A stretch of 64,000 bases of DNA, from the NCBI RefSeq assembly GCF_000429645.1, contig NZ_KE386933.1, forward strand, positions 496,001-560,000, given 5' to 3'. The notes under the pieces are model-generated. The model was not told the DNA's origin. It searched no databases and saw only the letters and a program-made list of their open reading frames with translations. Position numbers and translations under genes: made by a program. Source of the DNA: Niveispirillum irakense DSM 11586 (GTDB lineage: Bacteria; Pseudomonadota; Alphaproteobacteria; Azospirillales; Azospirillaceae). This document shows positions 6,561 through 26,359 of this stretch, one piece after another. Numbering within the stretch: the stretch's first letter is position 1; each line of letters begins with the position of its first letter.

Positions 6561-8072
6561 TCAGGGCGTCAGGGACAGGCGGCTGATGGGGTGGATGTCA
6601 TAGACATTGTCCTGCCAGCCCTGGACGCGGGGAGAAACCATGCGCTGGGAACTGCTGAACAGCAGCGGCAGCACATGGTGGCTCTCCAGGATCGCCCGCT
6701 CCTGCGCGCGCAAGCCCTGTTCAGTTGTCGATGTCTCGGCGCCGGGCGGCAGGAATGGGCTGATCGCGTATGAGGGGGCGTAGGAGACCCAGCCTGCGAA
6801 GATGAAGCCCGGATAGTCGCCATCGGCCTCTCGCCGGGTGATTATGCGCGGTTCCTGGGCGACCAGGATCGTTTCCACGCCCAGCACCTGTTTCCATTGC
6901 GCGGCGATGGACACCGCGCGGCGGCGTACCGCTTCGATCCCCGCATAGATCAACTCTACCGGCGGCGGGGTTTTCCCCTCGCCATAGCCGGCCTGGGCCA
7001 GGGCGGCGCGGGCGGCTGCCAGACGCATCTGCGGTTCCGGCACGGGGGCAGGCGGCATTTGCGTCTGCCACAGGCCCAGCGGCACCAGACCATAGGCGGG
7101 GCTGAGGCGGCCCTGGCTGGTCGCGGCGATCTGCTCACGATCAATCGCCAGGGCTAGCGCTGTCAAAAAGGCCGGATTGTCCCGCCAGGCGGGCCCGTTC
7201 AGGTTGACCCGCAGATAGTTCAGCGCGGTCCAGGGGTGGATATGCAGGCTGTCCGGCATATGGCCGCGCGCCCAGTCGACCATGGCGCCGGGCATGGTGC
7301 TGGTGACATGCAATTGTCCGGCACGGAACAGGTTCATCTCCATATCCGGGTTTTCCGACACCACCAGATCGATGCTTTCCACCAGCACCTGATCGCGACC
7401 ATGGTAATGGTCGGCGCGGATCAGCCGATAGCTTTCCTGTAACCGGTGATCGGCCAGCCGGTAGGGACCGTTGCACATGAAGGCGCGGGCCGTGCCAAAG
7501 CCGGTGCCGGCGGCCTGCAGCGTCGGCCCATGGACGGGCAAGGTGACGCGATGGGCCAGCACCATGTCGAAATCGACCATGGGCCGGGATAATCTTACCA
7601 GCAGATTGTGGGCATCCAGGGCCTCAACCCCCAGCCGGTCGGACGGCAGTTCCCCGCGCCGGATGGCCGGGGCATTTTCTACGGCATCCAGCAGATCGGC
7701 AATGCCGGACCGGGTGGCCGGATCAACGGCGCGGCGCCAGGCCTGAACGAAATCATCCGCGGTGACCGCATCCCCGTTCCACCAGCGTGCATCGGGGCGC
7801 AGGTGGAAGCGCCATTCCCGCCCGTCCGCCGATATGTCCCAGCCCGTTGCCGTGCCGGGAACGGTACGGCCGGCGCTGTCTCGGGTCAGCAGCCCTTCAC
7901 ACAGTTCCTGCAAAACGCGCCCCGTCCCCAAGGCCAGACCCCGATGGGGGTCCAGCGTCTCCAGTTCCGGCCCGATACCGATGCGCAAGGTCTCCGCCTG
8001 GGCGCATTGGGGCAGCAGGGTAGCCAGGAACAGGGCGAGGGCGCCGACCAGGACAGCCTTGGTGGGGATCAT
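6561..8072 (-). CDS. Periplasmic oligopeptide-type solute-binding protein (SBP_bac_5)
   Basis: A 503-residue protein with a Sec signal (ALALFLATLLPQCAQA) and the family 5 opening GIGPELETLDPHRG, followed by VTADDFVQAWRRAVDP. Relatives bind peptides for Opp/Dpp ABC importers. No permease or ATPase gene lies nearby, so it is an orphan binding protein. Its ATG overlaps the stop of the upstream winged-helix/ATPase regulator (ATGA), so the two are made together; a sensory role is possible but unproven. Confidence 0.85.
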   Translation of the reverse strand: MIPTKAVLVGALALFLATLLPQCAQAETLRIGIGPELETLDPHRGLALGTGRVLQELCEGLLTRDSAGRTVPGTATGWDISADGREWRFHLRPDARWWNGDAVTADDFVQAWRRAVDPATRSGIADLLDAVENAPAIRRGELPSDRLGVEALDAHNLLVRLSRPMVDFDMVLAHRVTLPVHGPTLQAAGTGFGTARAFMCNGPYRLADHRLQESYRLIRADHYHGRDQVLVESIDLVVSENPDMEMNLFRAGQLHVTSTMPGAMVDWARGHMPDSLHIHPWTALNYLRVNLNGPAWRDNPAFLTALALAIDREQIAATSQGRLSPAYGLVPLGLWQTQMPPAPVPEPQMRLAAARAALAQAGYGEGKTPPPVELIYAGIEAVRRRAVSIAAQWKQVLGVETILVAQEPRIITRREADGDYPGFIFAGWVSYAPSYAISPFLPPGAETSTTEQGLRAQERAILESHHVLPLLFSSSQRMVSPRVQGWQDNVYDIHPISRLSLTP

Positions 8073-9424
8073 GAAGGGCGCGGCATGTTCTGGGCGCAGG
8101 CCCGCACCAACGGGTTAAGGGTGAAACGGTCGCCGGCACTGCGCTCCAGCATGGATTTTTCATGCAGGCTGCCCAGCCATCCCGCTGGGCGGGACGGCTG
8201 GCCCTGGTCGGCCAGCAGCTTTTCCGCCTCCGGCATGGCGAAATCACCCGGCTGATCGGCCAGTGCCCGCAGGGCCTGACGTTCCGAAGGGGTCAGCAAA
8301 TTGAAAGCCCAGCCCATGGCCGCGCTCACGGAATGGTGGCGTGACGGGCCGGGGCGGCGCATGCCGGGCAGGGCATGCATGGGGTCCCGGCTGGCACTGG
8401 CGGTAGCATCCAGCCCCAGCAGGCTGGTGGCGCGGGCCGCAATCTCCACCCCCAGCGGGACGCCGCCCAGATGGCGGCAGATGCGGGCAATCGTGGGGGC
8501 GGCGGCTTGATCGCCATGGAAATCCAGACCGGCGGCGCTGGCCGCCTCCAGGAACAGGGAGGTGGCGGCGGCAGGTGTCCGATCATCCTCCACGCCGGGC
8601 ATCCCCAGGGGGGAAAGGCGCACGCAGTAGGGTCGCAGCCGGCGATGGGCGACATGGGACGTGATCAGGATGCCGGCCTGCGGGCAGCTTTCCATGATCC
8701 GCAGCACAAGGTCCAGTGCCCCGTCGCCCAGCAATTCTGCCCCGTCCAGCACCAGCAGACACTGGCGCTGGCCGATGGCGGCCAGCAGGGTTGCCACCAA
8801 GGCGCCCTGGATATTCAGACCAAGGGGGGCGGCGATCCGGGCTGCCAGCATATCGGCGGCGGGGGCGGGCACGCCATTCAGCCCCACCAGCCATTGACCA
8901 TCGGGGAAATCCGGGGCCAGTGCGCGGGCGGCGGCCAGGGCCAGCCGGGTTTTGCCCGTGCCGGACAGGCCGGTGATGACCAGCAGCCGGTCCCGCCGCA
9001 TCAGCTTCAGCACATTGGCCAGTTCCACCTCGCGCCCGGACAGGGGGGCCAGCGTGTGGGGGATATTGCCGATCGCGTGGGGCTGGTTTGGCACCGCCAG
9101 CCGGTACCCACGGCCATGGACGGTCAGGATCACCGATCCGTCACTGTCGCCGATGGCGGCGCGCAGGCCGGAAATCTGCACCGCCACATTGGCGGGATCC
9201 ACAATCTGGCCCGGCCATACCCGGTCCAGCAGATATGAAGAGGACACCTCCTGCCCGACATGGTCGGCCAGGATGGACAGAAGGGTGGTCGCCCGGCGTC
9301 CCAGCGGTATGGCAGCACCAGCCCGACAGGTCAGCCTTCCGCTGGCCCGGTCAAAGCGATAGGCCCCCACCGGCATATCCGCCGGGGCCGGTTTGTCGGT
9401 TCCACGATCCGTTTCCGGTTGCAT
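8069..9424 (-). CDS. Winged-helix DNA-binding protein with STAND/NB-ARC-type ATPase domain
   Basis: A 451-residue protein. Residues 17-110 are an OmpR/PhoB-type effector domain ending HGRGYRLAV. Residues 130-400 are a P-loop ATPase with Walker A GLSGTGKTR (152-160) and Walker B CLLVLDGAE (222-230). It lacks the long C-terminal helical-repeat region of the related gene at 10466, so it is a short member. The binding-protein gene overlaps its end. It probably regulates transcription, with ATP binding as a switch. No clear operator was identified. Confidence 0.82.
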   Translation of the reverse strand: MQPETDRGTDKPAPADMPVGAYRFDRASGRLTCRAGAAIPLGRRATTLLSILADHVGQEVSSSYLLDRVWPGQIVDPANVAVQISGLRAAIGDSDGSVILTVHGRGYRLAVPNQPHAIGNIPHTLAPLSGREVELANVLKLMRRDRLLVITGLSGTGKTRLALAAARALAPDFPDGQWLVGLNGVPAPAADMLAARIAAPLGLNIQGALVATLLAAIGQRQCLLVLDGAELLGDGALDLVLRIMESCPQAGILITSHVAHRRLRPYCVRLSPLGMPGVEDDRTPAAATSLFLEAASAAGLDFHGDQAAAPTIARICRHLGGVPLGVEIAARATSLLGLDATASASRDPMHALPGMRRPGPSRHHSVSAAMGWAFNLLTPSERQALRALADQPGDFAMPEAEKLLADQGQPSRPAGWLGSLHEKSMLERSAGDRFTLNPLVRACAQNMPRPS

Positions 9425-9489: not shown

Positions 9490-10317
9490 TTAACTGGTTG
9501 CGAAGGCCAGCAGGTCGGCATTCAGCCGTTCTTTATGGGTATCCGTCACGCCATGCGGCCCGCCTTCATAAACCTTCAACTCCGCATGGGGGACCAGCCG
9601 GGCCACGGCGCGGCCGGCGGCGTCGATCGGCACCACCTGATCGGCATCGCCATGGATGACCAGGGTGGGCAGGCCGTCGAACGACTTCAGATCCTCGGTG
9701 AAGTCGGTTTCCGAGAAGGCCTTGATGCAGTCATAGGTGGCCTTGTGGCTGGCCTGCATGCCTTGCGCCCAGAAACTGTCGATCATCCCTTGCGACGGGG
9801 TGGCGTCGGGCTTGTTGAAGCCGAAGAATGGGCCGGACGCGATATCCTGGTACAGCTTGGACCGGTCGGCCAGGCTGGCCGCGCGCAATCCGTCAAAGAC
9901 CTCCATCGGCAGGCCGCCCGGATTGGCATCCGTCTTCAGCATCAGCGGCGGAACCGCGCCGACCAAGGCGATCTTGGCGACACGGGCCTTGCCATGGCGT
10001 GCGACATAGCGGGTCACCTCGCCGCCGCCAGTGGAAAAGCCGACCAGCACCGCATCGCGCAGGTCCAGCGTTTCCATCAACTGGGCCAGATCGTCGGCAT
10101 AAGTGTCCATGTCATGGCCGTGCCAGGGCTGGCTGGACCGGCCATGGCCGCGCCGGTCATGGGCGATGGCGCGTAGCCCGTTGGAGGCCAGATGGAACAT
10201 CTGGGCTTCCCAGCTATCCGCGTTCAACGGCCAGCCATGGCTGAACACCACGGGCCGTCCGCTGCCCCAATCCTTGTAATAAATCTGCGTGCCGTCATCC
10301 GTGATGATCGTGCCCAT
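9490..10317 (-). CDS. Alpha/beta hydrolase (arylesterase / chloroperoxidase-like)
   Basis: A 275-residue protein with the fold landmarks of non-haem haloperoxidase-like esterases: [11 protein letters not shown] (oxyanion region), [10 protein letters not shown], the nucleophile elbow [20 protein letters not shown] with the acid, and GGPHGV with the catalytic His. Cofactor-free members hydrolyse esters and can perform perhydrolysis. The start at 10317 is the first ATG and the family opening [17 protein letters not shown] follows directly. It is divergent from the large regulator gene, which may control it. Confidence 0.88.
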
Positions 10318-10465
10318 GGATGTTCTCCGCTTTCGTGCTGGCTGCTGGGCCGGCGCTGGCGCCGGGATGGCTCCAGCGGGATCGGCCGATGGAACTATTC
10401 AGCGGAAAAACGGATCGGGGGTGTTAAAAGAAATAAAATCCGTGCCCTATGTACAAAGTCCAGGC

Positions 10466-12991
10466 ATGGTCCCTTGGCCTTCCCCGATGCCCCCTTGCGT
10501 CTTTATGAATATCGCAACGACCGATCGCTATATGCTGGACACTGTCCGTCGGCGCCTGCTGCGGAATGGGGAGCCTGTTGCCTTGGGTGATCGTGCCTTC
10601 GATCTGCTGCTGGCCCTGGCCGGCGGGGAGGGGCTGCCCGTTCCCGCCGATGATTTAACGGCCCGTGTCTGGCCGGGCGTGACGGTCAGTGCCGGCAATC
10701 TACGGGTTCAGATTCGTACATTGCGGCGGGCGCTGGGCGACGATGCGGTGGAGAATGTGCCGGGTGTGGGTTATCGGCTGACGCTGCCCTTGACCCCGGC
10801 GGGCATTGCTGGGCCGGGTTCGTCGGTCCTGGCTGAAGAGGTGCTGGTCGGTCGCGAGGAGGAACTGGCCCGTCTGCAGGACCTGCTGGGGCGGTCCCGG
10901 CTGGTGACGATCATCGGTCCTGGTGGTGTCGGTAAGACCTGTCTGGCCCGTGCCGCAGCGGACCGGTGCGAGGGGCTGCGTGTCGTTCATGTGGAACTGG
11001 CGCCTGTGCGGCAGCCGGGACTGGTGCCGGTGGTCACGGCGGCGGCCTTGTCCATCCCGGTGCTGACCACGGATATGATCGGCGCCATTCAGAAAGCGCT
11101 GGCCGACCAGCCGGCCCTGCTGGTGCTGGACAATGCCGAGCATCTGCTGGACGAGGTGGGGGAGTTCGCCGACAGCCTGCTGGGCACCTGCCCGGATTTG
11201 CGGCTGCTGCTGACCAGCCGTGAACCGCTGAATATCAGCGGTGAACAGTTGCTGCATCTCTGTCCCCTGTCCGTCCCGCCGGAGGATGAGGCGTCGCCGG
11301 CGGTGATCCGTACCTTCGCGGCGGTGGCACTGGTGCTGCGCAACCATCAGCGGGCTGGCTGGCCCGCCCTGGCGGATGCGGAGATGCCCGCCCTGGCCCG
11401 GCTGTGCCGACAGTTGGATGGGTTGCCGCTGGCCCTGGTGCTGCTGGCAGCAAGGCTTCGGGATTGTTCAGTGGCGGATGTGGCCCAGGCGCTGGCCGAC
11501 CGGCTGCATCTGCCCCTGCCTTTGGGTGACGCCTATCGTCATGACAGCCTGGCCCATATGCTGGACTGGAGTTTCGATCTCCTGTCCGGGGAGGAGAAGC
11601 TGCTGCTCTCCCGTCTGGCGATCTTTGCCGGAACGTGGCAGCTCCCGGCGGCGATGGAAGTTTGCGGCGAAGCGCCCCTGTCCCCCCCTATCATCCCGGC
11701 GCTGGTGGCCAATCTGGTGGCGCGGTCGCTGGTGGCGGGGCCGGTGCAGACACAAAATCCTGGCCTGCGCATGCTGGAAACGATCCGCCAATATGTGGTG
11801 GCCCGCGACCCGGACCTGCTGCGGCGTGAGGGGCTGCATGCGCGGCTGGTGCGCCGGGTGGGCCATGACGCGCAGAGTTACTATTGGCAGTCTCAGCGCC
11901 TTGGATTGTCAAAAGCCGGATTGGAATCCGATTTTGCGGATCTTCGTACCGCGCTGGACTGGGCGCTTGGCGGCGGGGACATCCTGGCCGGTCAGGCTTT
12001 GGTTCCCGATGTGCTGCAGCCCTTTAACCGGGAGGGGCTTTATGCGGAGAGCGCCAGATATCTGACCCAGGCTTGGCTGGCGTGCGATGCCACGACGCCA
12101 CCGGTCCTGCGCGCGATGCTGGGGCTCGCCCTGCATGGGGAAGGGGTCCCGATCCGGCTGCCGTATCACGCCTATCGGCGGGATTATGCCCGTGATGAGC
12201 TTTGGGATGCTGTTGCGGCCTTGGAGAGTGGGCGGGATTATCCGGCATATTGGCTGGCCAGAGGATTGGTTAATGCCGGATGGGTTTTACGTTACACGGG
12301 CGACCCCGCACAGACGCAGATCTTATGGGCACGGGCGGCTGCGGTTGCTGAAGCCGCCGGCAGTTATAACGATCAGTCGGCGGTCCTGTCCCTGATTGGG
12401 TGGGCGGCGGGGTGTGATGGCGACATGGAAACCGCGCGCCGCAGCTTTGACCAGTCGCTGGAGATTGCCGGGCGTATTGGGCTGCAGGGAAACCTGACCT
12501 TGTTGCGTTATGCCGATGCCGAGTTCACCAATGGCTTCACCGATCGGGCCATCGCGATGGCACAGGAGGCCATTAAGGATATGGCGGGCCTGCAGCCGGC
12601 CCTGCGCCAGACCCTTTCCGCCAACCTTGCAAGCTATCTGCTGTTAAATGACCGGCTGGAAGAAGCGGTGCCCCATGCCCTTCAGGCGTTGCGGGTATTG
12701 ATCCGCCATCAATATACCCATGCCTTTGCCTGGACCTTCGAGCGCGGAGCCCTGATCGCGGCCCGGTCAGGCGAGATGGTTTTTGCAAGGCAGTTGATGA
12801 TGCTGGGCGAGGAGCATCTTATTCGTGACCATCGCGACCGGACAGGCCCGGAAAAGATGGTGCATCAGCGTCTGGTCGCCGCCTTGGGCACTGACCATGC
12901 CGGCGTGCCCGTGCTGACACAGGAAGAAGCGCTGGAGCGGCTGGTCCTGCTGCTGGAAATGGGCCAGGCCGCCGCGCCTGTCTCGGGTTAA
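10466..12991 (+). CDS. Large winged-helix / predicted ATPase regulator with C-terminal helical repeats
   Basis: About 841 residues. The N-terminal OmpR/PhoB-type effector domain (RRRLLRNGEPVALGDRAFD to VENVPGVGYRLTL) is followed by a STAND ATPase with Walker A GPGGVGKTC and Walker B LLVLDNAE, then about 400 residues of TPR-like helical repeats. This is the usual length for the predicted-ATPase regulators. The start is uncertain: ATGs at 10466, 10487 and 10505 and GTGs at 10421 and 10442 all lack a convincing ribosome site; 10505 is the latest that keeps the whole domain. It is divergent from the alpha/beta hydrolase and homologous to the shorter regulator at 8069. Confidence 0.85.
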   Translation: MVPWPSPMPPCVFMNIATTDRYMLDTVRRRLLRNGEPVALGDRAFDLLLALAGGEGLPVPADDLTARVWPGVTVSAGNLRVQIRTLRRALGDDAVENVPGVGYRLTLPLTPAGIAGPGSSVLAEEVLVGREEELARLQDLLGRSRLVTIIGPGGVGKTCLARAAADRCEGLRVVHVELAPVRQPGLVPVVTAAALSIPVLTTDMIGAIQKALADQPALLVLDNAEHLLDEVGEFADSLLGTCPDLRLLLTSREPLNISGEQLLHLCPLSVPPEDEASPAVIRTFAAVALVLRNHQRAGWPALADAEMPALARLCRQLDGLPLALVLLAARLRDCSVADVAQALADRLHLPLPLGDAYRHDSLAHMLDWSFDLLSGEEKLLLSRLAIFAGTWQLPAAMEVCGEAPLSPPIIPALVANLVARSLVAGPVQTQNPGLRMLETIRQYVVARDPDLLRREGLHARLVRRVGHDAQSYYWQSQRLGLSKAGLESDFADLRTALDWALGGGDILAGQALVPDVLQPFNREGLYAESARYLTQAWLACDATTPPVLRAMLGLALHGEGVPIRLPYHAYRRDYARDELWDAVAALESGRDYPAYWLARGLVNAGWVLRYTGDPAQTQILWARAAAVAEAAGSYNDQSAVLSLIGWAAGCDGDMETARRSFDQSLEIAGRIGLQGNLTLLRYADAEFTNGFTDRAIAMAQEAIKDMAGLQPALRQTLSANLASYLLLNDRLEEAVPHALQALRVLIRHQYTHAFAWTFERGALIAARSGEMVFARQLMMLGEEHLIRDHRDRTGPEKMVHQRLVAALGTDHAGVPVLTQEEALERLVLLLEMGQAAAPVSG

Positions 12992-16768: not shown

Positions 16769-17107
16769 TCAGCCCAAAGTGGCGAGAGCTGCGGCACGGT
16801 CGGGCTGGATGGCGAAGATGGTGGAGAAGCCGCTGATATCGAACACTTCGCGCACATTGGGATGCAGGGCGCACAGCACCAGCTTCACCTGCCGGGCCTT
16901 GGCCTGTTTTGCCGCTTTCAGCAGGATGCGCAAGCCCGCGCTGCTGACATAATCCAGCCCGCCCATATCAATGATCGTGGCCGGCGCGCCAGCGATGGCG
17001 GCTGTCAGGGGGGCGTCAAGGGCGACGCTGGTCGTGCCGTCCAGCCGGCCATTCAGGCCGACCAGATTGGTGCTGCCGACCTGTTCCAATGCAATATCCA
17101 TCGCCAT
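16769..17107 (-). CDS. STAS-domain anti-sigma factor antagonist (SpoIIAA/RsbV type)
   Basis: A 112-residue single STAS domain. The phosphorylation loop DYVSSAGLR places the target serine at 55 or 56. Such proteins bind the kinase in unphosphorylated form, releasing its partner, and are reset by a PP2C phosphatase. ATG 17107 follows AGGGA with 7-base spacing and overlaps the kinase stop by one base; GTG 17110 is possible. It is the last gene of the leftward five-gene operon. The phosphatase at 23896 is the obvious partner. Confidence 0.92.
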   Translation of the reverse strand: MAMDIALEQVGSTNLVGLNGRLDGTTSVALDAPLTAAIAGAPATIIDMGGLDYVSSAGLRILLKAAKQAKARQVKLVLCALHPNVREVFDISGFSTIFAIQPDRAAALATLG

Positions 17108-18855
17108 CACTCGTTCCCTGTTGCGTCGTTTTTCCAGCCGGCCACGCGCTGGCCGAAACGGAAATGATTGTGATCGTCCTGCCGGCGATAGGACACCATG
17201 TCCATCATCGTCCGGACCATATGCACGCCCAGCCCGCCAATCTCCCGCTCCTCAAGATCGGCATCGATATCGACCGGCGGGCGGGCCAGCGGATCGAAGG
17301 GAGGGCCGTCATCCACGATCTCGGCCTGGAGCATGATATCGCTCAGCACCAGGGATACCTTGATCTCCCGCCCGGCGGCCCCGTCCAGACCATGCTGGAT
17401 GACATTGGTCAGCAACTCATCGAAACAGAGATTGAACTGGAAGGTCGGGCGGGGTGGGATGGCGTTATGGTCGCAGAAGGCCTCCACCGCGTCAGCCAGC
17501 CGGGGGATTTCCTCCACCCGGCTGTCCAGCACCATGTCGAGGCGGGCGAGTTCGTCCATTCCAACAGGTCTCCGGTTCAGGGCGGTGGTGGAGGCGGGGT
17601 TGGTGATCAACGCATAGACGCCGACACAACGCCGTTGAAGGATGGTTGAGAGATCGGCAGCCCGCGCTTCCAGCGCCACATCGACGAACCGTTCCATATA
17701 TTGGTGCAGCAGTCTTTCGCCGCCGCCGGTCAGCAGGCCGACGGAAAGAATAGCCTCATCCGCTGGGATATTCTCCTGAATCTTGCCAGCGCGCAGTTCC
17801 ACCAGGCTGGTTGCTGCGCTGTCATGATCCCAACTGACGACAAGCAGCCGCTCCCCGGTCATGCTGCTGGCCATCTCTGCCAAGACCTGGGCCGGCGGGG
17901 AGCCTTCGGCCAACCGTGCGGCCAGAAGGTCGCCGATGGCACCGGCGCGGATCGCGCGGTCCAGCGGATCGGCCAGTTGCACGCTGCCCAGCAGAAGATG
18001 GCTGCGGCCGGGCTGGCGCACCAGACGCAGGATCTGGCCGGCATCCCCACCCACCCGCTGCACGATCAGGCGCCGCCCGCCGCAGAAGGTGTCGATATCG
18101 GGCTGGGTTGCCTCTACCAATGTGCCCACAAGGTCATGCACGGTGCGGAACTGTTCATTTTCTATGCATAGCCGTTCTGACCGGGCGCGGCGGGCCCGCA
18201 GCACGCTGTGCATGGTGCGCAGCGCATCGTCCAGATCCTCGATCTCCGTGATGCCGGTCAGGTCCGGGTCGCTGTCCAGCCGGTCGCTGGACATCAGGCC
18301 CATACGGCGCTTCAGCGCCCGCAGGCGCCCAGCGATGCGACCGGCCACCAGCAGTGCCGCCACCAGCCCCAGCAGGGCGCCTGCGGCCAGAAGTCCGGCT
18401 GCAACCATGTGCAGCCGTTGTTCTTCTGCTCCCTGCCGCGCGGTGGAAAGCTCCAGCACCAGCCAGCCGCCATCGGCAAGCGGTGCGATGGCCGTGGCCA
18501 CCGTGTCTACCGTGAGATCATCGGGCAGACTTATGCCCACCGTCGTGGGGGCGCTTGGCGGGGATGGGGTTATGGATGTGCCGATGGACAGCGTTTGCCC
18601 GCCGGCCGCATCAAACAGACGCAGTCCGACAATCTCATTGCGTGCCGCAATATCGGCCAGTGTTGCTTCCGGTGGGTTGCTGCTGGATGGCACCAGTTCC
18701 GCCAGTGCCACGGCGGCAGCGCGCGCCTGTTCGTTCAGGCCCCATATAGCCTCGGTTCGGTGGCCCAGCAGGACCAGCCCGGCACCCAGGCCGGACAGGA
18801 CCAGCAGCAGCGGGACAAACAGAAGGATGATGCGGGTGCGGAGCGACAGGATCAT
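17107..18855 (-). CDS. Membrane anti-sigma-type serine kinase (sensor, HAMP, degenerate PP2C-like region, HATPase)
   Basis: A 582-residue protein. Transmembrane helices lie near 9-30 and 150-172 around a small periplasmic sensor; a HAMP-like region follows. Residues 440-582 are an RsbW/SpoIIAB-type ATPase with N-box FDELLTNVIQHG (478-489), DDG (515-517) and GGLGVHMV (540-547). The segment 250-420 keeps VGGD (268-271) and then HLLLGSVQLADPLDRAI, which parallels GGDLYDYF...HLVFIVGDVSGKGVPAAL of the neighbour phosphatase but without the second metal Asp; I read it as a dead PP2C domain. It overlaps both neighbours. It probably phosphorylates the STAS protein. No sigma factor is nearby. Confidence 0.85.
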   Translation of the reverse strand: MILSLRTRIILLFVPLLLVLSGLGAGLVLLGHRTEAIWGLNEQARAAAVALAELVPSSSNPPEATLADIAARNEIVGLRLFDAAGGQTLSIGTSITPSPPSAPTTVGISLPDDLTVDTVATAIAPLADGGWLVLELSTARQGAEEQRLHMVAAGLLAAGALLGLVAALLVAGRIAGRLRALKRRMGLMSSDRLDSDPDLTGITEIEDLDDALRTMHSVLRARRARSERLCIENEQFRTVHDLVGTLVEATQPDIDTFCGGRRLIVQRVGGDAGQILRLVRQPGRSHLLLGSVQLADPLDRAIRAGAIGDLLAARLAEGSPPAQVLAEMASSMTGERLLVVSWDHDSAATSLVELRAGKIQENIPADEAILSVGLLTGGGERLLHQYMERFVDVALEARAADLSTILQRRCVGVYALITNPASTTALNRRPVGMDELARLDMVLDSRVEEIPRLADAVEAFCDHNAIPPRPTFQFNLCFDELLTNVIQHGLDGAAGREIKVSLVLSDIMLQAEIVDDGPPFDPLARPPVDIDADLEEREIGGLGVHMVRTMMDMVSYRRQDDHNHFRFGQRVAGWKNDATGNE

Positions 18856-19244
18856 GGCTGCGTACTCACCAGATCACCGGCCGTGTCGAAAAAGGCCACC
18901 AGCAGCCCCGGGCATTCATTGATTATGGTGAAGAAATGCCCGCGCGCGATGGCGAGCCCGGCGGCACCCTGCACCGGATCAGCCAGCAGGGGTGCGGGTA
19001 CACCCCGTTCAAACAGCAGCGCGGCGGCCCCGATCACCGGCGGCAGCCGCTGGCCCGCCATGATCACCGCCCCTTCACGTATGATCAGCAGATGGCGCAG
19101 TTCGTCTTCCGGGGTGGCGATGGTCTCCCCCGGTCGCCAGGACATCTCGCGGGAGATGTCGGCGATCACGGCCAGCTCGTCGCTGCGCAGCCGGTCGAAG
19201 GGTGGTGTCATGCGAAGCTGGAACAGCCGGTCAATCGCGCTCAT
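18852..19244 (-). CDS. Small cNMP-binding-like protein
   Basis: A 130-residue protein resembling one cyclic-nucleotide-binding fold: FDRLRSDELAVIADISREMSWRPGETI, then LLIIREGAVIMAG. The phosphate-binding cassette (GE...R-A-A/T) is not visible, so classical cAMP binding is doubtful. It has no DNA-binding domain. Start and stop overlap the flanking genes by four bases (ATGA), placing it in the partner-switching operon between two membrane proteins. It resembles the C-terminal domain of the 20551-23709 protein and may work as a small regulatory subunit. Confidence 0.6.
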   Translation of the reverse strand: MSAIDRLFQLRMTPPFDRLRSDELAVIADISREMSWRPGETIATPEDELRHLLIIREGAVIMAGQRLPPVIGAAALLFERGVPAPLLADPVQGAAGLAIARGHFFTIINECPGLLVAFFDTAGDLVSTQP

Positions 19245-20554
19245 GCCGACAACTCCGCCTGTGGCCGGAAGACCATGCTGCGTCCTTCACCCGTCAGGCA
19301 CAGGGACTGGCCGGGTGGCAGCGTCAGGTGATGTTCACCCGGCGCCATCCGGGTGCCATCCGGCAGCGCAAGCGTGATGGTATTGCGCAATGTCAGGCTT
19401 GTGCCATCCAGGGCGAACAGGGCCAGCAACCCGTGCCCCAGCAGCGGCGCTGTCCGTTGCAGGGCCAGCCTGGGCAGGGGCGGGCTGGTGGCGGCCAGAT
19501 GGGTCACTTGCAGGGCGCGGATGCGGGCGCGCAGCGGATCGGCTTCCGCCATGGCGATCCAGGCAATCACCCCGCCTTTGCCCAGCGGGACGGCCCCATC
19601 CAGCGAGGGGTGGCTGAGCGTGACCAGCGGTGTGCCACCGCCGGGCCGGCCATTCAGCAGGCGCAGCAGGCCGCTTGTACGCCGTTCCCACTCTGTCCGG
19701 TGATCGGCGGCCTCCGTCCGCGCCATCTCCTGCCGCACGGTTTCGCGCATATTGTTGAAAGCATGGGCCAGATCAGCCAGTTCGCGCGCCCCGCGTGGCG
19801 GCACGCTGACGGATGTTTCCCCCGCCGCCAGACGGAAGCCAGCCAGCTTCATACCAGCCAGGGGGCCGGCGATGCGCCGCGCGGCCAGTACCGCGATCCC
19901 CACAGCCAGCAGCAGGGAAGCCGCGCCGATCAGTCCGGCGCTGACAAGGGCCACCCGCAATTTTCGATTGATCGCAGAGATATCCACGTCGGCCCCGGCC
20001 ATGGCCTCGGCCCGTCGGCCCTGCCGGGGCAAAGGCACAAAAGCTGTCTTGATCAGGCCCCATTGCTCCCATTGCTGGATATCGGTGATGTAGGGCTGAC
20101 CGGTATCCAGGACAGACAGGATATTACGGGCATCGCTTTCCGGCAGGCTGTCCATGGTGCCTGGCGGGGAATGGTTGTCGTCCGTATTGGCATCCAGCAC
20201 GTAAACGATATCCAGCCCGCCCATTGGGGCCTGGGTATAAAGGTAGGTTAATGCCAGTTGCTGTTTGATCCGGCGCAGCGGGGCGACCGCTTGCTGGAAG
20301 GCTTCCGTCTGTTCCAGCGCGTCCCCCGGTTCCCCGGCATGGATGGCGGCCAGAAGATCGCGATGCACCTGCGGATCAATCAGGGCAGCGGTAACGGTGC
20401 CGACAGCGGTCAGCTTGGCATCAAAGCCGGCGATGATGCTGCGGCGCATTTCTCCATAAGCGGTGATGGCGACGGCCAGTGTGGTCAGGACCAGCGCCGG
20501 CACCAGGGCCAGCAGCAAAAGCCCCTGAAGGCTGAAGCGTGCGCCCCGGTTCAT
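19241..20554 (-). CDS. Membrane sensor with HAMP and a degenerate PP2C-like C-terminus
   Basis: A 437-residue protein. Helix 10-32, a periplasmic domain (33-200), helix 203-226 and a HAMP region match the layout of the phosphatase at 23896. Shared sensor landmarks are TYLYTQ versus TYVYTY and GLIKTAFVPL versus GTFRTVFVPV. The C-terminus GHGLLALFALDG...APGEHHLTLPPGQSLCLTGEG can be laid along the end of the phosphatase domain (GHDAPIVLSADG...LSPGDTLLLYTDG), but TDG has become TGE and the metal-binding first half is missing. It is probably a pseudophosphatase or decoy. ATGA overlaps occur at both ends. Confidence 0.65.
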   Translation of the reverse strand: MNRGARFSLQGLLLLALVPALVLTTLAVAITAYGEMRRSIIAGFDAKLTAVGTVTAALIDPQVHRDLLAAIHAGEPGDALEQTEAFQQAVAPLRRIKQQLALTYLYTQAPMGGLDIVYVLDANTDDNHSPPGTMDSLPESDARNILSVLDTGQPYITDIQQWEQWGLIKTAFVPLPRQGRRAEAMAGADVDISAINRKLRVALVSAGLIGAASLLLAVGIAVLAARRIAGPLAGMKLAGFRLAAGETSVSVPPRGARELADLAHAFNNMRETVRQEMARTEAADHRTEWERRTSGLLRLLNGRPGGGTPLVTLSHPSLDGAVPLGKGGVIAWIAMAEADPLRARIRALQVTHLAATSPPLPRLALQRTAPLLGHGLLALFALDGTSLTLRNTITLALPDGTRMAPGEHHLTLPPGQSLCLTGEGRSMVFRPQAELSA

Positions 20555-23500
20555 GCCGCCACCCTGTGCCGGAACAGGCGGATGGCCAGCCGGGGATAAG
20601 CCTTTGCCGATTCAAGGATGGCCTGGGCGGGGATCACCAGCACCTCGCCCGCCGCCATGAAGGCCTCGCTTTCATAGCGGGCGCTAGTCAGTGCCTCCAT
20701 GCCGATCAGGCTGGGTGTATCATGGTCACTTACCTGTCCGTCCGGGGCCGTTACGCGTGCGTGGCCCCGCAATAGAAGGAACAGGCTGTCCGCCCGTTCA
20801 CCGGGCTCGAACAGGGAGGTGTCGTCGATCTCGCATTGTTCGCTGGCCCCGACAATGATCAGCAGGTCACGCAAGGGCGAAGACTGGAAAAGATCGCACT
20901 GCGCCAGTGCCGCCAGCTTCGCCACGGGTGTCAGGCGTTGATTGCTGGCTTCCAGATGCAAAAGGTCCAGCACTGTCTGCTGGGCCACATCGTGCCGGCC
21001 GGGGCGCAGGCGGCTGCGCAGGTCGGGCAGGGCCTTTTCCCGCTCCATATCCCACAAGGCCTGGGCGGCGGCTGCTGCTTCCAGGGGGACATCGCTGTTC
21101 AGGGCGGTCCGGAAGATGCTGTCGGGCCTATTTGCCCCTTTCAGACGGTGGTAATTTGCCAGACGGGCGGCCTGGGCCTGCGCATCGCTCAAGCCCCGGA
21201 TCAGGGTGAAGACCTCGTAATCCGCGGCCTGTTCCAGCGCCTCCAGCGCGTTGCCGCGCGCCTTGGGATTGCTGGATTGCAACGTTGCCATCAGCAGTTC
21301 GAAATTGGGCAGGCCGCCGCCCAGGGTCAACAGCAGCAACGCAAATTCCAGCCCATCGCGCTGCTGGTCCTGATAGACCCGGCGCAGCATGGCGCTGCCG
21401 GTGGAGCCGGCAATTTCCGGGACCAGCGATCCGTCCCGTTCTGCGGCATAGGCCCGGCGCAGTTCCGCCGCCGGCAGCCCGCCTGCCGTGGCGGCGAACT
21501 GGGCGGGCGACAGCCGGGCCAGCGCGCGGGCAGCCACGGCCCGGCTGGAAAAGCCATAATGCCGGTCGCGCAACACCCGCACCAGAACCGGGATGGCCGC
21601 TGTGCCCAACCCGGCAGCCGCCTGTTCCATCGCGCGGCGCTCGAACGGGGTCAGCAGATCGGCCAGTTCCAGCAAAGGCAGCAGCACGGCTGGGTCCCTG
21701 GTCGACGCCAGCACCTCAATCCCCACCGACCGGGCCTCCGGCGATGCCCGGCGGATGGCATTGAGGATATGACCGGTCAGGTGCATCGTCTTCAGGGCGC
21801 CCATTTCCTGCAAGGCGACCAGGGCGCCATGGCGCACCTCCGGGGCCGCGTCGGTCAGGAAATCGGCGATCAGGTGGGCGAACCTGTCTTCCTCCAGCCG
21901 CCCCAGCGCCTGGACAGCGGCCAGTCTCTCCGCCTCGTCGCCATGGCGCAGTTCCGTCAACCGGTCCAGCGCCAGCTTGCAATTGGCAGGGTCGCTGCTG
22001 TGCCAGAGGGCAATCACGGCGGCGGCGGCCATATCGGGTTCCATCAGCCGGTCGCGCAGCGCTTCAACCCGGCCGCGATCCAGCAATTTATGCACGCCAA
22101 GTTCCGCCACCATGGCCGCCTGCGACCAGAGCCGGGCCAGGGTAGGGTCATCTGCCAGGCGCAGCACGGCGCGGCCGGCCCCGTCCTCCAGTGCGCGGCG
22201 CAGCACCGGTCGCGCTGCCACCTGTCCCCTGGGGCCGGCGACGGCAATGAAATGCAGCAAGGCCTTCAGGTCAGCCAATGTCCAGGCGCCCGGCTGGATC
22301 AGCATGTCCAGGGCGGCGATCCGGACATCTTCAGGGTTGTCGGCGTCCAGCGCCAGGGCGCGCAGGGTCAGTGATTCCTGGTCATTGCTGAGGCCGCGCC
22401 GGGGATTGCCGAAATCCAGCCAGCCCCGGCGCAGATTATTGACCATGGACTGGCGATAGGCGTTCCGTAGCGCCAGGACCAGCAGGATCAGCGCCAGCGC
22501 CAGCAGGATACCGACGGCGGAAAGCTGTTCCGGGCTCAGGTCGTCTTGCAGAAGCAGCAGGATGACACCGGCAAAGGCGGTGACGAACGGCTCGCACAGC
22601 CCCTCCACGACGGTGCGGACCTGCTTGCGGTACCGTTCGTCGATGGCGTTGAACAGGAAGTTGAAATTATTGAAATCAATGGCCGGCACTATGCCCTGAA
22701 GCAGCAGGAAGCCCAGCAATGCCGGGCCCAGGCCGAAATCGCCGAAATAATAGGTGAAGATCAACACATAGGTGGCGGGAACGATCAAGGCCACCGACCG
22801 CACGCCCAGCCGCAGGACCAGACGGTTGAAGATGAAAAGATTGATGAGCAAGGTCAGCGCACTGGCCGTGCCGTAAAGCTGACCGAACATCCGTGCCAGT
22901 TCCTGTTCGTCCCGCCCTTGGGCAAAGACGGACAGATATTGGAACTCGTTGATATTGCCCAGCAGCAGGGACAGCAGAAAGACGCCGACCACAATCGGGA
23001 TGTAGCGGGACCGGCGTAGCCCTTCCCGGATGGTGGCCAGCGTGCCACCGGCGGCTTCTTCTTCGGCACCCGGATCGTCACTTTCGCTCAACCGCACCCA
23101 GCGCTGCCGGATCAGCAGCACCAGCGGCAGGGTCATCAGCGCCAGTCCGGCCCATACCAGATAAAGGGAAGCGATGGATAAGCTGCCGGCCAGCATTGTC
23201 ACGGCGCCGCCACCGGCAATGCCGCCAATGGCGGCGCCCGCGCTTAACAGCGCAAACAGCCGCTTGCCGTCCTGCACATCGAAATAATCGTCAATAAAAT
23301 TCCAGTAAAGCGTATAGAGGCCGATGAACCAGACTGCCGCGTAAATCCGCACGGCATAAGACAGGCCATCCGCCAGCAGCGGCGGCAAATGGCTGGCATT
23401 GGTCAGCCCCAGCCAAGCCAGCACCCCGCCGCCCACCAGCACGCCCAAGGCCAGCATCAAGGCCCCATCCGCGCCAAACCGCCCGGATATATAGGCCATG

Positions 23501-23709
23501 GCCGGCGTATAGAGCAGCATGGCAACGGCTGTCACCATATAGACATAGGGCAGGCTGGCGGCCCCGGCCGCTGTCAGGAACAGGGCATCGCCCGCACTCA
23601 TTCCGATGCTGAGGCCGGCCTGCAGCAGAAATGAAAGGGCGGCGAACGGAATGACCTTTGCCAGGTCGCGCCGTTCCAGTCGCAATGCGCGCAGGACCGT
23701 GTTGATCAT
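20551..23709 (-). CDS. NTT/ATP-ADP-translocase-like transporter fused to HEAT repeats and cNMP-like domain
   Basis: About 1052 residues. The first 430 hold eleven to twelve transmembrane helices of an MFS-like, Npt1/Npt2-type nucleotide-transporter fold (including LYTLYWNFIDDYFDVQDGKR and AIDFNNFNFLFNAIDERYRKQ). Residues about 460-930 are alpha-helical HEAT-type repeats (such as DAAPEVRHGALVALQEMGAL). The last 100 residues are a cNMP-like barrel (LFEPGERADSLFLLLRGHARV) without a clear phosphate cassette. ATG 23709 is preferred over the TTG at 23760. It is first in the leftward operon. Whether it transports or only senses nucleotides is unknown. Confidence 0.75.
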   Translation of the reverse strand: MINTVLRALRLERRDLAKVIPFAALSFLLQAGLSIGMSAGDALFLTAAGAASLPYVYMVTAVAMLLYTPAMAYISGRFGADGALMLALGVLVGGGVLAWLGLTNASHLPPLLADGLSYAVRIYAAVWFIGLYTLYWNFIDDYFDVQDGKRLFALLSAGAAIGGIAGGGAVTMLAGSLSIASLYLVWAGLALMTLPLVLLIRQRWVRLSESDDPGAEEEAAGGTLATIREGLRRSRYIPIVVGVFLLSLLLGNINEFQYLSVFAQGRDEQELARMFGQLYGTASALTLLINLFIFNRLVLRLGVRSVALIVPATYVLIFTYYFGDFGLGPALLGFLLLQGIVPAIDFNNFNFLFNAIDERYRKQVRTVVEGLCEPFVTAFAGVILLLLQDDLSPEQLSAVGILLALALILLVLALRNAYRQSMVNNLRRGWLDFGNPRRGLSNDQESLTLRALALDADNPEDVRIAALDMLIQPGAWTLADLKALLHFIAVAGPRGQVAARPVLRRALEDGAGRAVLRLADDPTLARLWSQAAMVAELGVHKLLDRGRVEALRDRLMEPDMAAAAVIALWHSSDPANCKLALDRLTELRHGDEAERLAAVQALGRLEEDRFAHLIADFLTDAAPEVRHGALVALQEMGALKTMHLTGHILNAIRRASPEARSVGIEVLASTRDPAVLLPLLELADLLTPFERRAMEQAAAGLGTAAIPVLVRVLRDRHYGFSSRAVAARALARLSPAQFAATAGGLPAAELRRAYAAERDGSLVPEIAGSTGSAMLRRVYQDQQRDGLEFALLLLTLGGGLPNFELLMATLQSSNPKARGNALEALEQAADYEVFTLIRGLSDAQAQAARLANYHRLKGANRPDSIFRTALNSDVPLEAAAAAQALWDMEREKALPDLRSRLRPGRHDVAQQTVLDLLHLEASNQRLTPVAKLAALAQCDLFQSSPLRDLLIIVGASEQCEIDDTSLFEPGERADSLFLLLRGHARVTAPDGQVSDHDTPSLIGMEALTSARYESEAFMAAGEVLVIPAQAILESAKAYPRLAIRLFRHRVAA

Positions 23710-23895
23710 GGGCCCTAGGTCATGGAGCCGCAGGATTGCGGATGGAGGACAGTTGTACAACGACGTATGACCACGCCATCGTCATTTTGCAAGCGTGCCG
23801 ATTTTACGGCATGATGCCCACCTCTTTCAGGGGGAAACAGACGTGGGTATGGCTAATACCAGTTCGGACCTGTCGCGAAGCCGGCAGGTGTCGGC
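23710..23895. promoter_or_regulatory. Divergent control region of the partner-switching operons
   Basis: These 186 bases separate the two divergent operons and must hold both promoters. They contain a perfect 10-base palindrome GTTGTACAAC (23752-23761) and a short inverted repeat TGCCG-ATTTTA-CGGCA (23797-23812). Either could bind a regulator. I could not assign -35/-10 boxes with confidence. Confidence 0.45.
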
Positions 23896-25551
23896 ATGAG
23901 ACTTGGTCTGGGCATACGGGGCAAGCTGCTGTTGCTGCTTTTTGTTGCCAGCATTGCCACTTCCGCCAGCTACACATGGTTCACCTATCATCGTGAACGC
24001 AATGCCGTACTGGCGGGTATTGATGCCCGCCTGCTGGCAGCCGCCCGCGCGGTGGAGCTTTATACCGGGGTTGATTATCACGACCGTATCGACGGGGCAG
24101 GTTCGGTTCCGCTAGCCCAGTATCAGGCCATGATGCAGCGCCTGAACACCTATGCCCGGCAGACCGGCTTTACCTACGTTTATACCTATATGCAGTTTGA
24201 CGGGAATATCCGCACCACCGCGACCAATGCCACGGAGGAGGAACTGGCGGACGGCACGTATGACCGTTTCTTCCACCATTACGACACGGCGTCTCCTGTC
24301 CTTTTCCGCGCCTTCCAGACGGGGCAGATCCAGTTCGAGGATCTGGTGGACAGCTACGGCACTTTCCGCACTGTTTTCGTGCCCGTCACCACCCCATCGG
24401 GCAAAGTGTTTGTCGCGGGCGCCGACCTGAGCATCGATTTTGTTGAACAGCAGATGAGAGCGGCGCTGCGGGGCGCCCTGCTGATCGGCGGGGCCGGCTT
24501 CGTGCTGATGATGGTGCTCGGCCATTTCGTGATTTCCCGCATCATTCAGCCCCTGACGGTCTTGACGGGCAAGACCAAGCTGCTGGTGGGGGACAGTATC
24601 GACCGGGATATCGCCGACCAGATCCGCGCCATCATGGCGCGCCGCCGGGATGAGGTGGGGGCGCTTGCCGCTGCTTTGACGGAGATGATCCGCCGCCTGG
24701 ATCTTTATGTCATCCAGTTGCAGGAAACCACGGCGGCGAAGGAGCGGGTGGAGGGCGAGTTATCAGCGGCCCGTGAAATCCAGCTTGGCCTGCTGCCCTG
24801 CCGGGAACCGCCCTTTCCCCAGCATCCCGAGTTTGAGCTGCATGGCCTGATGGAGCCGGCCAAGGCGGTAGGCGGCGACCTTTATGATTATTTCATGGTA
24901 GGTGAGGACCATCTGGTCTTCATCGTGGGGGACGTGTCGGGCAAGGGCGTGCCAGCGGCTTTGTTCATGGCCGTGGCCAAGACCCTGTTCAAAGGCAATT
25001 CCGCGTCGGCCCCGCCGCCGGCCCCGCCCGACATCGCCTCTGTGGTCGATCTGTTGAACCGGCAGCTTTGCGATGAAAACCCGCAGGAACTGTTCATCAC
25101 CGTCTGTGCCGGCATCCTGAATATCCGCACGGGTCAGGTGGATTATTGCGATGGCGGCCATGACGCCCCCATCGTGCTTTCCGCTGACGGACAGATAAAG
25201 CGGGTGGACAAGGTGCCCGGTCTGGTCCTGGGCGCCATGGATGATTATGACTATCAGGCGGGCCGCATCATGCTGTCGCCGGGTGACACGCTGCTGCTTT
25301 ATACTGACGGCATCACCGAGGCGATGGACCCGACGGGCCGCACCTTCACCTATGAAGGGCTGCTGGAACGGTTGATGGCGATGCCCGCGGACCTGACGCC
25401 GCGCGGCGTCAACGGCTGGGTCCGGGACAGTGTCGCCGCCTTTGCGGAAGGGGCTGAACAGTCCGACGACCTGACATTGCTGACAATCCGTTATCTGGGT
25501 GACGCGCAGCCCTCGTCTGTGGTGGAGAGCCGGGAGAGTGTTTTTGCCTGA
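23896..25551 (+). CDS. Membrane sensor-HAMP-SpoIIE (PP2C) serine phosphatase
   Basis: A 551-residue protein. Helix 8-27, periplasmic sensor 28-190, helix 193-215, HAMP to about 270, a short coiled linker, then a PP2C/SpoIIE domain. The metal-binding acids are present: GGDLYD (D328, D331), VGDVSGKG (D346), TDG (D471) and SDD (524-525), so it should be active. It would dephosphorylate the STAS protein encoded at 16769, reversing the kinase at 17107. It is first in the rightward operon; the next gene starts before it ends. Confidence 0.9.
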   Translation: MRLGLGIRGKLLLLLFVASIATSASYTWFTYHRERNAVLAGIDARLLAAARAVELYTGVDYHDRIDGAGSVPLAQYQAMMQRLNTYARQTGFTYVYTYMQFDGNIRTTATNATEEELADGTYDRFFHHYDTASPVLFRAFQTGQIQFEDLVDSYGTFRTVFVPVTTPSGKVFVAGADLSIDFVEQQMRAALRGALLIGGAGFVLMMVLGHFVISRIIQPLTVLTGKTKLLVGDSIDRDIADQIRAIMARRRDEVGALAAALTEMIRRLDLYVIQLQETTAAKERVEGELSAAREIQLGLLPCREPPFPQHPEFELHGLMEPAKAVGGDLYDYFMVGEDHLVFIVGDVSGKGVPAALFMAVAKTLFKGNSASAPPPAPPDIASVVDLLNRQLCDENPQELFITVCAGILNIRTGQVDYCDGGHDAPIVLSADGQIKRVDKVPGLVLGAMDDYDYQAGRIMLSPGDTLLLYTDGITEAMDPTGRTFTYEGLLERLMAMPADLTPRGVNGWVRDSVAAFAEGAEQSDDLTLLTIRYLGDAQPSSVVESRESVFA

Positions 25552-26359
25552 CACACAATCCTTCAGTGCCGATATCACGGCCGAATTCGCCCGCCTTTAT
25601 CCTGCGGCCTGGGCCCGGCAGGCGATCCCCGCAGATGAACTGGCGCTGCTGGCGCAAGCGGCAATGGGGAATGGCAACCAGTTCCGCCGTTTCCTGAAAC
25701 GCCGCCTGCATGGTGACCCGGTGGCCTATATCCTGGGCCATGTCACTTTCGCCGGCCGTCGCTTCACCATGGACCGGCGCGCCTATGTCACCGATCCGGA
25801 GACGGTGCATCTGGTGGGGGCCGTGCGGCAATGGGCCAGCCCCCGACAGGGGCCCCTCTATGCGGCGGAAGTGGGGGTAGGCGCGGGCGCCCTTGCCATC
25901 ACTCTGTTGCTGGAGGTGCCGGACCTGCGCATCACCGGTCTGGAACTGGATGACGCCGCTGCCGCCCTGTGCCGGGAAAATGCCGCCCATCATGGCGTGG
26001 CTTTGGATGTGGTGGAAAGCGACCTGTTCGCCGCCTGGGGCGACCGGCCGGCCCCGGACCTGATCTATGGCGACCTGCCTTGGGGCGATGATACGACTTT
26101 GTATGGTCAGGATCGGGATGCCGATCATTATCATCGTATGCCGCCGACCACGGCCTTCCCCTTGTCTGGCCGGACAGGCGCGCATCAGGATCTGATAATG
26201 GCGGTGCGCGACCGGGGGTGGGCTGCCCATATCCTGTTAAATTGCGGCACCTTGCCGGATGGCGATATCGCTGATGTCGTAGCGGCAGCCAGGGACATGC
26301 AAGCCCGCTTGCTGTCGCCAGCGGCCACGGCGCGCATTCTGCACCTTTTCCCGCTGTGA
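25538..26359 (+). CDS. PrmC/HemK-like class I SAM methyltransferase
   Basis: About 273 residues. An N-terminal helical region (RRFLKRRLHGDPVAYILGHVTFAGRRF) resembles PrmC's substrate domain; AEVGVGAGALAITLLLEVPDLRITGLELD is the SAM-binding motif. The catalytic motif, normally NPPY in PrmC, reads GDLPWGDD, closer to the DPPW type, so the substrate may not be release-factor glutamine. Start uncertain: GTG 25538 overlaps the phosphatase; TTG 25544 has better spacing from GGGAGAG; GTG 25499 is also open. It is coupled to the SET gene by a GTGA overlap. Confidence 0.75.
   Translation: MFLPDTQSFSADITAEFARLYPAAWARQAIPADELALLAQAAMGNGNQFRRFLKRRLHGDPVAYILGHVTFAGRRFTMDRRAYVTDPETVHLVGAVRQWASPRQGPLYAAEVGVGAGALAITLLLEVPDLRITGLELDDAAAALCRENAAHHGVALDVVESDLFAAWGDRPAPDLIYGDLPWGDDTTLYGQDRDADHYHRMPPTTAFPLSGRTGAHQDLIMAVRDRGWAAHILLNCGTLPDGDIADVVAAARDMQARLLSPAATARILHLFPL

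Follow-up and report, generated by a model that had tools for sequence, protein, structure and literature searches.

What role could a phosphatase-like domain that appears to have lost its catalytic site play between a membrane sensor and the kinase that an active phosphatase would oppose? This question is raised by a single intact open reading frame of 582 amino acids at 17107–18855 (minus strand) in the 64,000-nucleotide stretch of Niveispirillum irakense DSM 11586 analysed here (the window), for which an earlier note had proposed an anti-sigma-type kinase with an apparently dead PP2C domain between HAMP and ATPase segments. Using reading-frame analysis, Pfam, a predicted model and fold searches, we arrive at the reading, which we hold to be rather likely, of a partner-switch kinase anchored in the membrane, with a pseudophosphatase as relay, in which the dead phosphatase has been kept, probably for relaying a signal to the kinase.

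From its N terminus the protein runs through a transmembrane segment, a periplasmic PAS/Cache-like domain, a second transmembrane segment, a weak HAMP, a linker, the pseudo-PP2C domain and an RsbW/SpoIIAB-type kinase. The kinase assignment of the earlier note holds: residues 437–566 (17158–17547, minus strand) match PF13581 (E 2.4e-20 over 445–566) and carry the N-box E480/N484 together with the G boxes DDGPPFDP and GGLGVH, and no other kinase of this subfamily is present in the genome. In the predicted model, the periplasmic sensor (residues 31–138; 18442–18765, minus strand) resembles the extracellular domain of WalK/YycG, with VIA-align Z scores of 10–11 against 4ywz, 7dud, 5is1 and 3cwf. 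It is followed at 18109–18351 (minus strand) by a HAMP-like segment (169–220) and a helical linker to residue 249, modelled as a long helix at low pLDDT. The HAMP that the note had placed before the PP2C-like domain is thus seen, but as a weak Pfam match below cut-off (E 0.066). Pfam detects nothing else in the protein besides the kinase and this HAMP; no receiver domain was found in the scan, the input being a membrane sensor instead.

The gene lies in a five-gene operon on the minus strand, each overlap of which is 4 bases, in the order transporter–HEAT gene, Cache–HAMP sensor, small cyclic-nucleotide-binding-like protein, pseudo-PP2C–kinase gene and STAS gene. The STAS anti-anti-sigma-type protein (16769–17110, minus strand; PF01740 E 3e-18, TIGR00377 above cut-off) bears the phospho-site motif YVSSAGLR, its gene overlaps the 3' end of the kinase gene, and it is the presumed substrate of the fused kinase. 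Upstream, at 18852–19244 (minus strand), the small protein shows weak likeness to a cyclic-nucleotide-binding domain (PF00027 E 0.074, below cut-off); it has 130 residues, is kept in the relatives L027 and G003 introduced below, and its phosphate-binding cassette is unrecognisable by eye. The sensor at 19241–20554 (minus strand) and the ATP/ADP-translocase-like transporter with HEAT repeats and a cyclic-nucleotide-binding-like C terminus at 20551–23760 (minus strand; PF03219, PF13646, PF00027) complete the operon; distant relatives of the transporter (27–31% identity) occur in other genera of the family, and in blastp the remaining cluster genes were absent from their neighbourhood. Divergent from the operon, at 23896–25551 (plus strand), a Cache–HAMP–PP2C protein (PF07228 E 9e-43) retains intact metal motifs (VGGD, GDVSGKG, TDGITE and SDDLT) and is presumably the opposing phosphatase. 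The 3' end of its gene is overlapped by an open frame at 25499–26359 (plus strand) that looks by eye like a HemK/PrmC-like methyltransferase, and a similar gene adjoins the PP2C gene in the same two relatives. Elsewhere in the window, two regulators with winged-helix and ATPase parts, also recognised by eye, stand in opposite orientation at 8069–9424 (minus strand) and 10289–12991 (plus strand), one of them adjoining a gene for an oligopeptide-binding-type protein.

Among 82 genomes of the family, a sensor–pseudo-PP2C protein occurs in three, with two further matches that are marginal and partial; a marginal match in G059 falls in a membrane protein resembling a glycosyltransferase and was dropped. 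One relative (L027) is a fused ortholog, 57% identical, whose contig carries a second kinase and a STAS gene some 75 kb from it. No STAS gene adjoins the L027 fusion, which counts against the relay reading. In a second relative (G003), of the same genus as the window, the gene order is the same and the protein ends after the pseudo-domain, without a kinase; kinase and STAS form a separate pair 14 kb away. An ENEQ motif in the HAMP-like and linker region is common to the three relatives. In a further genome (G006), a standalone kinase (57% identity) adjoins a STAS gene (60%). Across a class sample of 385 genomes with up to three candidates each, the matches listed outside the protein's own genome fall in the kinase part, and none of those listed covers the sensor plus most of the pseudo-PP2C region; a plasmid search likewise matched the kinase part only. 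A number of long open frames near kinases in the class turned out to be extensions in the wrong frame and were set aside.

That residues 250–424 (17584–18108, minus strand) form a PP2C-like domain is a reading drawn from structure prediction. Residues 240–425 gave neither a PF07228 match nor any other credible match in Pfam or NCBIfam, the segment alone retrieved nothing from Pfam or with a PDB sequence profile, and hhalign of 250–424 against SpoIIE and PPM profiles, starting from a shallow alignment, returned no match. Local alignment of 250–424 to the divergently encoded active PP2C is not above chance (17% of shuffles reach its score), and pairwise shuffle tests against six active PP2C domains were better than chance for one of the six only. 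With shuffles and hhalign negative, a sequence-only proof of PP2C in this segment was dropped. In the AlphaFold2 model, built on three sequences with one aligned row (L020) taken from a genome search, pLDDT is about 80 across most of 250–420, and the order of elements there (beta4-alpha2-beta4-alpha2-beta) fits PP2C. Foldseek against the PDB places the PP2C domain of Pseudomonas aeruginosa RssB (3f79) in the top six rows, with E from 6.9e-6, followed by the Rv1364c RsbU–RsbW structure (3ke6) and RsbX (3w40), and 11 of the 12 matches at E ≤ 0.001 are PP2C; VIA-align ranks 3ke6 first (Z 15.0, 171 residues, rmsd 2.8) and RsbX second (Z 14.2), with many PP2Cs after them. Because the best matches of the model are PP2C folds, the PP2C reading, not above chance by sequence, is rescued, and residues 250–424 are shown by the model to take this fold. 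The earlier note had matched motifs in 250–420 to the active phosphatase of the locus, a PP2C reading that the model supports but pairwise sequence does not, and had proposed profile–profile search and structure prediction of 240–425; the prediction yields a PP2C fold with the metal acids absent, the profile–profile search with its shallow alignment was negative, and the contrary outcome it named, a confident match to a GAF or PAS fold, did not appear. Since kinase and linker have pLDDT below 50, contacts between the domains are unreadable from the model.

The core metals of SpoIIE are bound by D628 (together with the carbonyl of G629), D746 and D795 (PMC5468089). Assigning positions by motif and predicted secondary structure, without superposed coordinates, we find none of these three aspartates retained in the window protein, leaving peripheral D271 alone. 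At residues 289–300 (17956–17991, minus strand), LGSVQLADPLDR stands in place of VGDVSGKG, so that GDVSGKG has become GSVQLAD and the D628 position is occupied by S291, which is N in L027 and R in G003. By motif comparison, TGGGE (17716–17730, minus strand) replaces TDG(I/V)TE at the D746 position; residues 402–424 are free of Asp and Glu, which leaves the last core Asp missing in any register. VGGD is kept at 268–271, and its D271 corresponds to SpoIIE D610, which is not counted among the core ligands. Some metal binding is possible since D271 remains and D296 and D299 are conserved nearby, all three being invariant across the three relatives, and the unfused G003 protein may retain one extra Asp because it has SSDASE near the TDG position. 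The motifs quoted in the earlier note, VGGD, LGSVQLAD for VGDVSGKG and the subsequent AIRAGAIGDLL, are all present, and its reading of an apparently dead PP2C is supported by the three replaced core aspartates together with the modelled fold.

Between the window protein and L027, residues 226–424 give dN 0.31 and dS about 1.1, a dN/dS of about 0.3 (Nei–Gojobori, with synonymous sites near saturation), and identity reaches 82% over 365–420 against 66% in the kinase; a conserved DPxDR starts the first switch helix. This comparison of coding sequences indicates that the pseudo-PP2C is under purifying selection, as a maintained pseudophosphatase.

The sibling sensor at 19241–20554 points to how the domain may be connected to active phosphatases. 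With hhalign, the N-terminal half of the pseudo-PP2C protein is homologous to that of this sibling through the linker to residue 250 (E 6.8e-7), and the sibling is homologous over 8–388, into the PP2C domain, to the active PP2C protein (E 9.9e-12), suggesting an indirect chain of homology from the pseudo-PP2C protein through the sibling to the active enzyme. The C-terminal part of the sibling (about 309–431) is without the metal motifs of the active PP2C; VIA-align ranks PP2C structures first for it (Z 5–6, on a model of moderate to low pLDDT), and plain Foldseek gives nothing significant. We regard it as a probable second, shortened pseudo-PP2C. By eye, a DPL motif is common to the pseudo-domain and the sibling, at the start of the helix after the lost GD motif.

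In related PP2C proteins, linkers (coiled-coil) carry N-terminal signals to switch helices, in RssB the same linker and switch elements work without catalysis (PMC5468089; PMC12143880), and HsbR-type proteins show that the state of a single STAS protein can be set by a PP2C and a kinase sharing one chain (PMC6482189). Because related PP2Cs and RssB use linker and switch helices in this way, we infer a similar path to the fused kinase: a signal from the periplasm would travel along the HAMP segment and helical linker to reach the switch helices, and the dead PP2C would in turn hold the fused kinase on or off. The kinase would phosphorylate the serine of the STAS protein, a step that the separately encoded active PP2C would undo. 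From the three genomes we further envisage that a sensor–PP2C paralogue lost catalysis first, giving a standalone pseudophosphatase sensor, and that the kinase of a kinase–STAS pair was later joined onto its C terminus. Death before fusion is read from one unfused relative, and G003 may alternatively have lost its fused kinase. We propose only tentatively, as somewhat short of an even chance, the full account in which the pseudophosphatase is an allosteric gate of its fused, opposing RsbW-type kinase through linker and switch helices and the unfused relative represents an intermediate that has survived. If it is true, one genus shows steps of a pseudoenzyme route that reuses PP2C allostery for new outputs.

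The pseudo-PP2C could instead be a dimerisation partner of the active PP2C or of the sibling, regulating the phosphatase and thereby bringing the kinase into the complex. PP2C domains of this type dimerise via linker and switch helices (PMC12143880), and the G003 protein, without a kinase, is nevertheless clustered with an active PP2C gene; yet the most conserved block, 365–420, sits away from the switch helices, and between the sensor halves of the pseudo-PP2C protein and the active PP2C protein no similarity was detectable; we consider this arrangement unlikely. Somewhat less likely still is a STAS-docking platform that has lost catalysis and continues to bind the substrate and present it to the fused kinase: PP2Cs of this family do bind STAS substrates and the STAS gene overlaps the kinase gene in the window, but the active-site motifs have changed greatly and a STAS gene adjoins neither the L027 fusion nor the unfused G003 protein. 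That 250–424 has remained a metal-dependent phosphatase, its unusual metal site built on the invariant D271, D296 or D299, is very improbable given that there is no acid at 402–424, where the last core Asp would lie, or at the core GD position. Equally hard to credit is an unrelated alpha/beta domain (GAF, PAS or roadblock) with the PP2C match a model artefact, for which speak the nil sequence signal to PP2C and the roadblock and Ntn-like folds lower down the Foldseek list, but against which PP2C chains take the top ranks with about 150–190 residues aligned at Z 11–15, the element order fits PP2C and PP2C also comes first for the sibling, which was modelled separately.

The reading of a sensor-bearing kinase with a pseudophosphatase relay can be set against several known systems. 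Escherichia coli RssB likewise has a PP2C fold without phosphatase function, regulated from an N-terminal input by way of a helical linker (PMC5468089; PMC12143880), but it contains a receiver domain and its task is the delivery of sigma-S to ClpXP, in contrast to the membrane sensor before and the kinase after the pseudo-PP2C in the window protein. HsbR of P. aeruginosa and CrsR of Shewanella share the chain of input, PP2C and RsbW-type kinase with a STAS partner (PMC6482189); they differ in having an active PP2C and a receiver as input, the PP2C of the window protein being dead and the active one being encoded apart, by the divergent gene. TAB1, named as a human pseudo-PP2C (PMC5468089), is also a dead PP2C in kinase (TAK1) regulation, and differs in being a separate eukaryotic adaptor for another kinase family. 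Rv1364c of Mycobacterium tuberculosis (RsbU–RsbW), our best structural match, resembles the window protein in having a PP2C joined to a kinase. Unlike the window protein, Rv1364c has a working phosphatase and is not known to have a membrane sensor with HAMP. The HsbR/Rv1364c-type architecture, PP2C and kinase in one chain, is present by fold and profile, but the pairing of two competent enzymes is not, the PP2C core acids being absent. The same domain order is seen in a PAS–GAF–PP2C–kinase fusion from another family of the same class (G041, L012), whose kinase is 38% identical and whose PP2C, unlike ours, is intact (VGGD, GDVSGKG, TDG and DD), with a cytosolic PAS/GAF input judged by eye from the part seen.

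Since intact PP2C–kinase fusions are known elsewhere, the window protein appears to be a variant of the sensor–PP2C–kinase switch in which the phosphatase is dead but kept; searches of open-licence papers brought up no fusion of a dead PP2C with an RsbW-type kinase. Regulated phosphatases are what usually sets a partner switch; in this protein the sensor appears to sit on the kinase side, by way of a dead phosphatase copy. A 2017 structural study suggested that PP2C allostery can reach new outputs via pseudoenzyme intermediates, RssB being its chief example from bacteria (PMC5468089). With fused and unfused natural forms at this locus and an intact fusion elsewhere in the class, that pseudoenzyme idea becomes testable.
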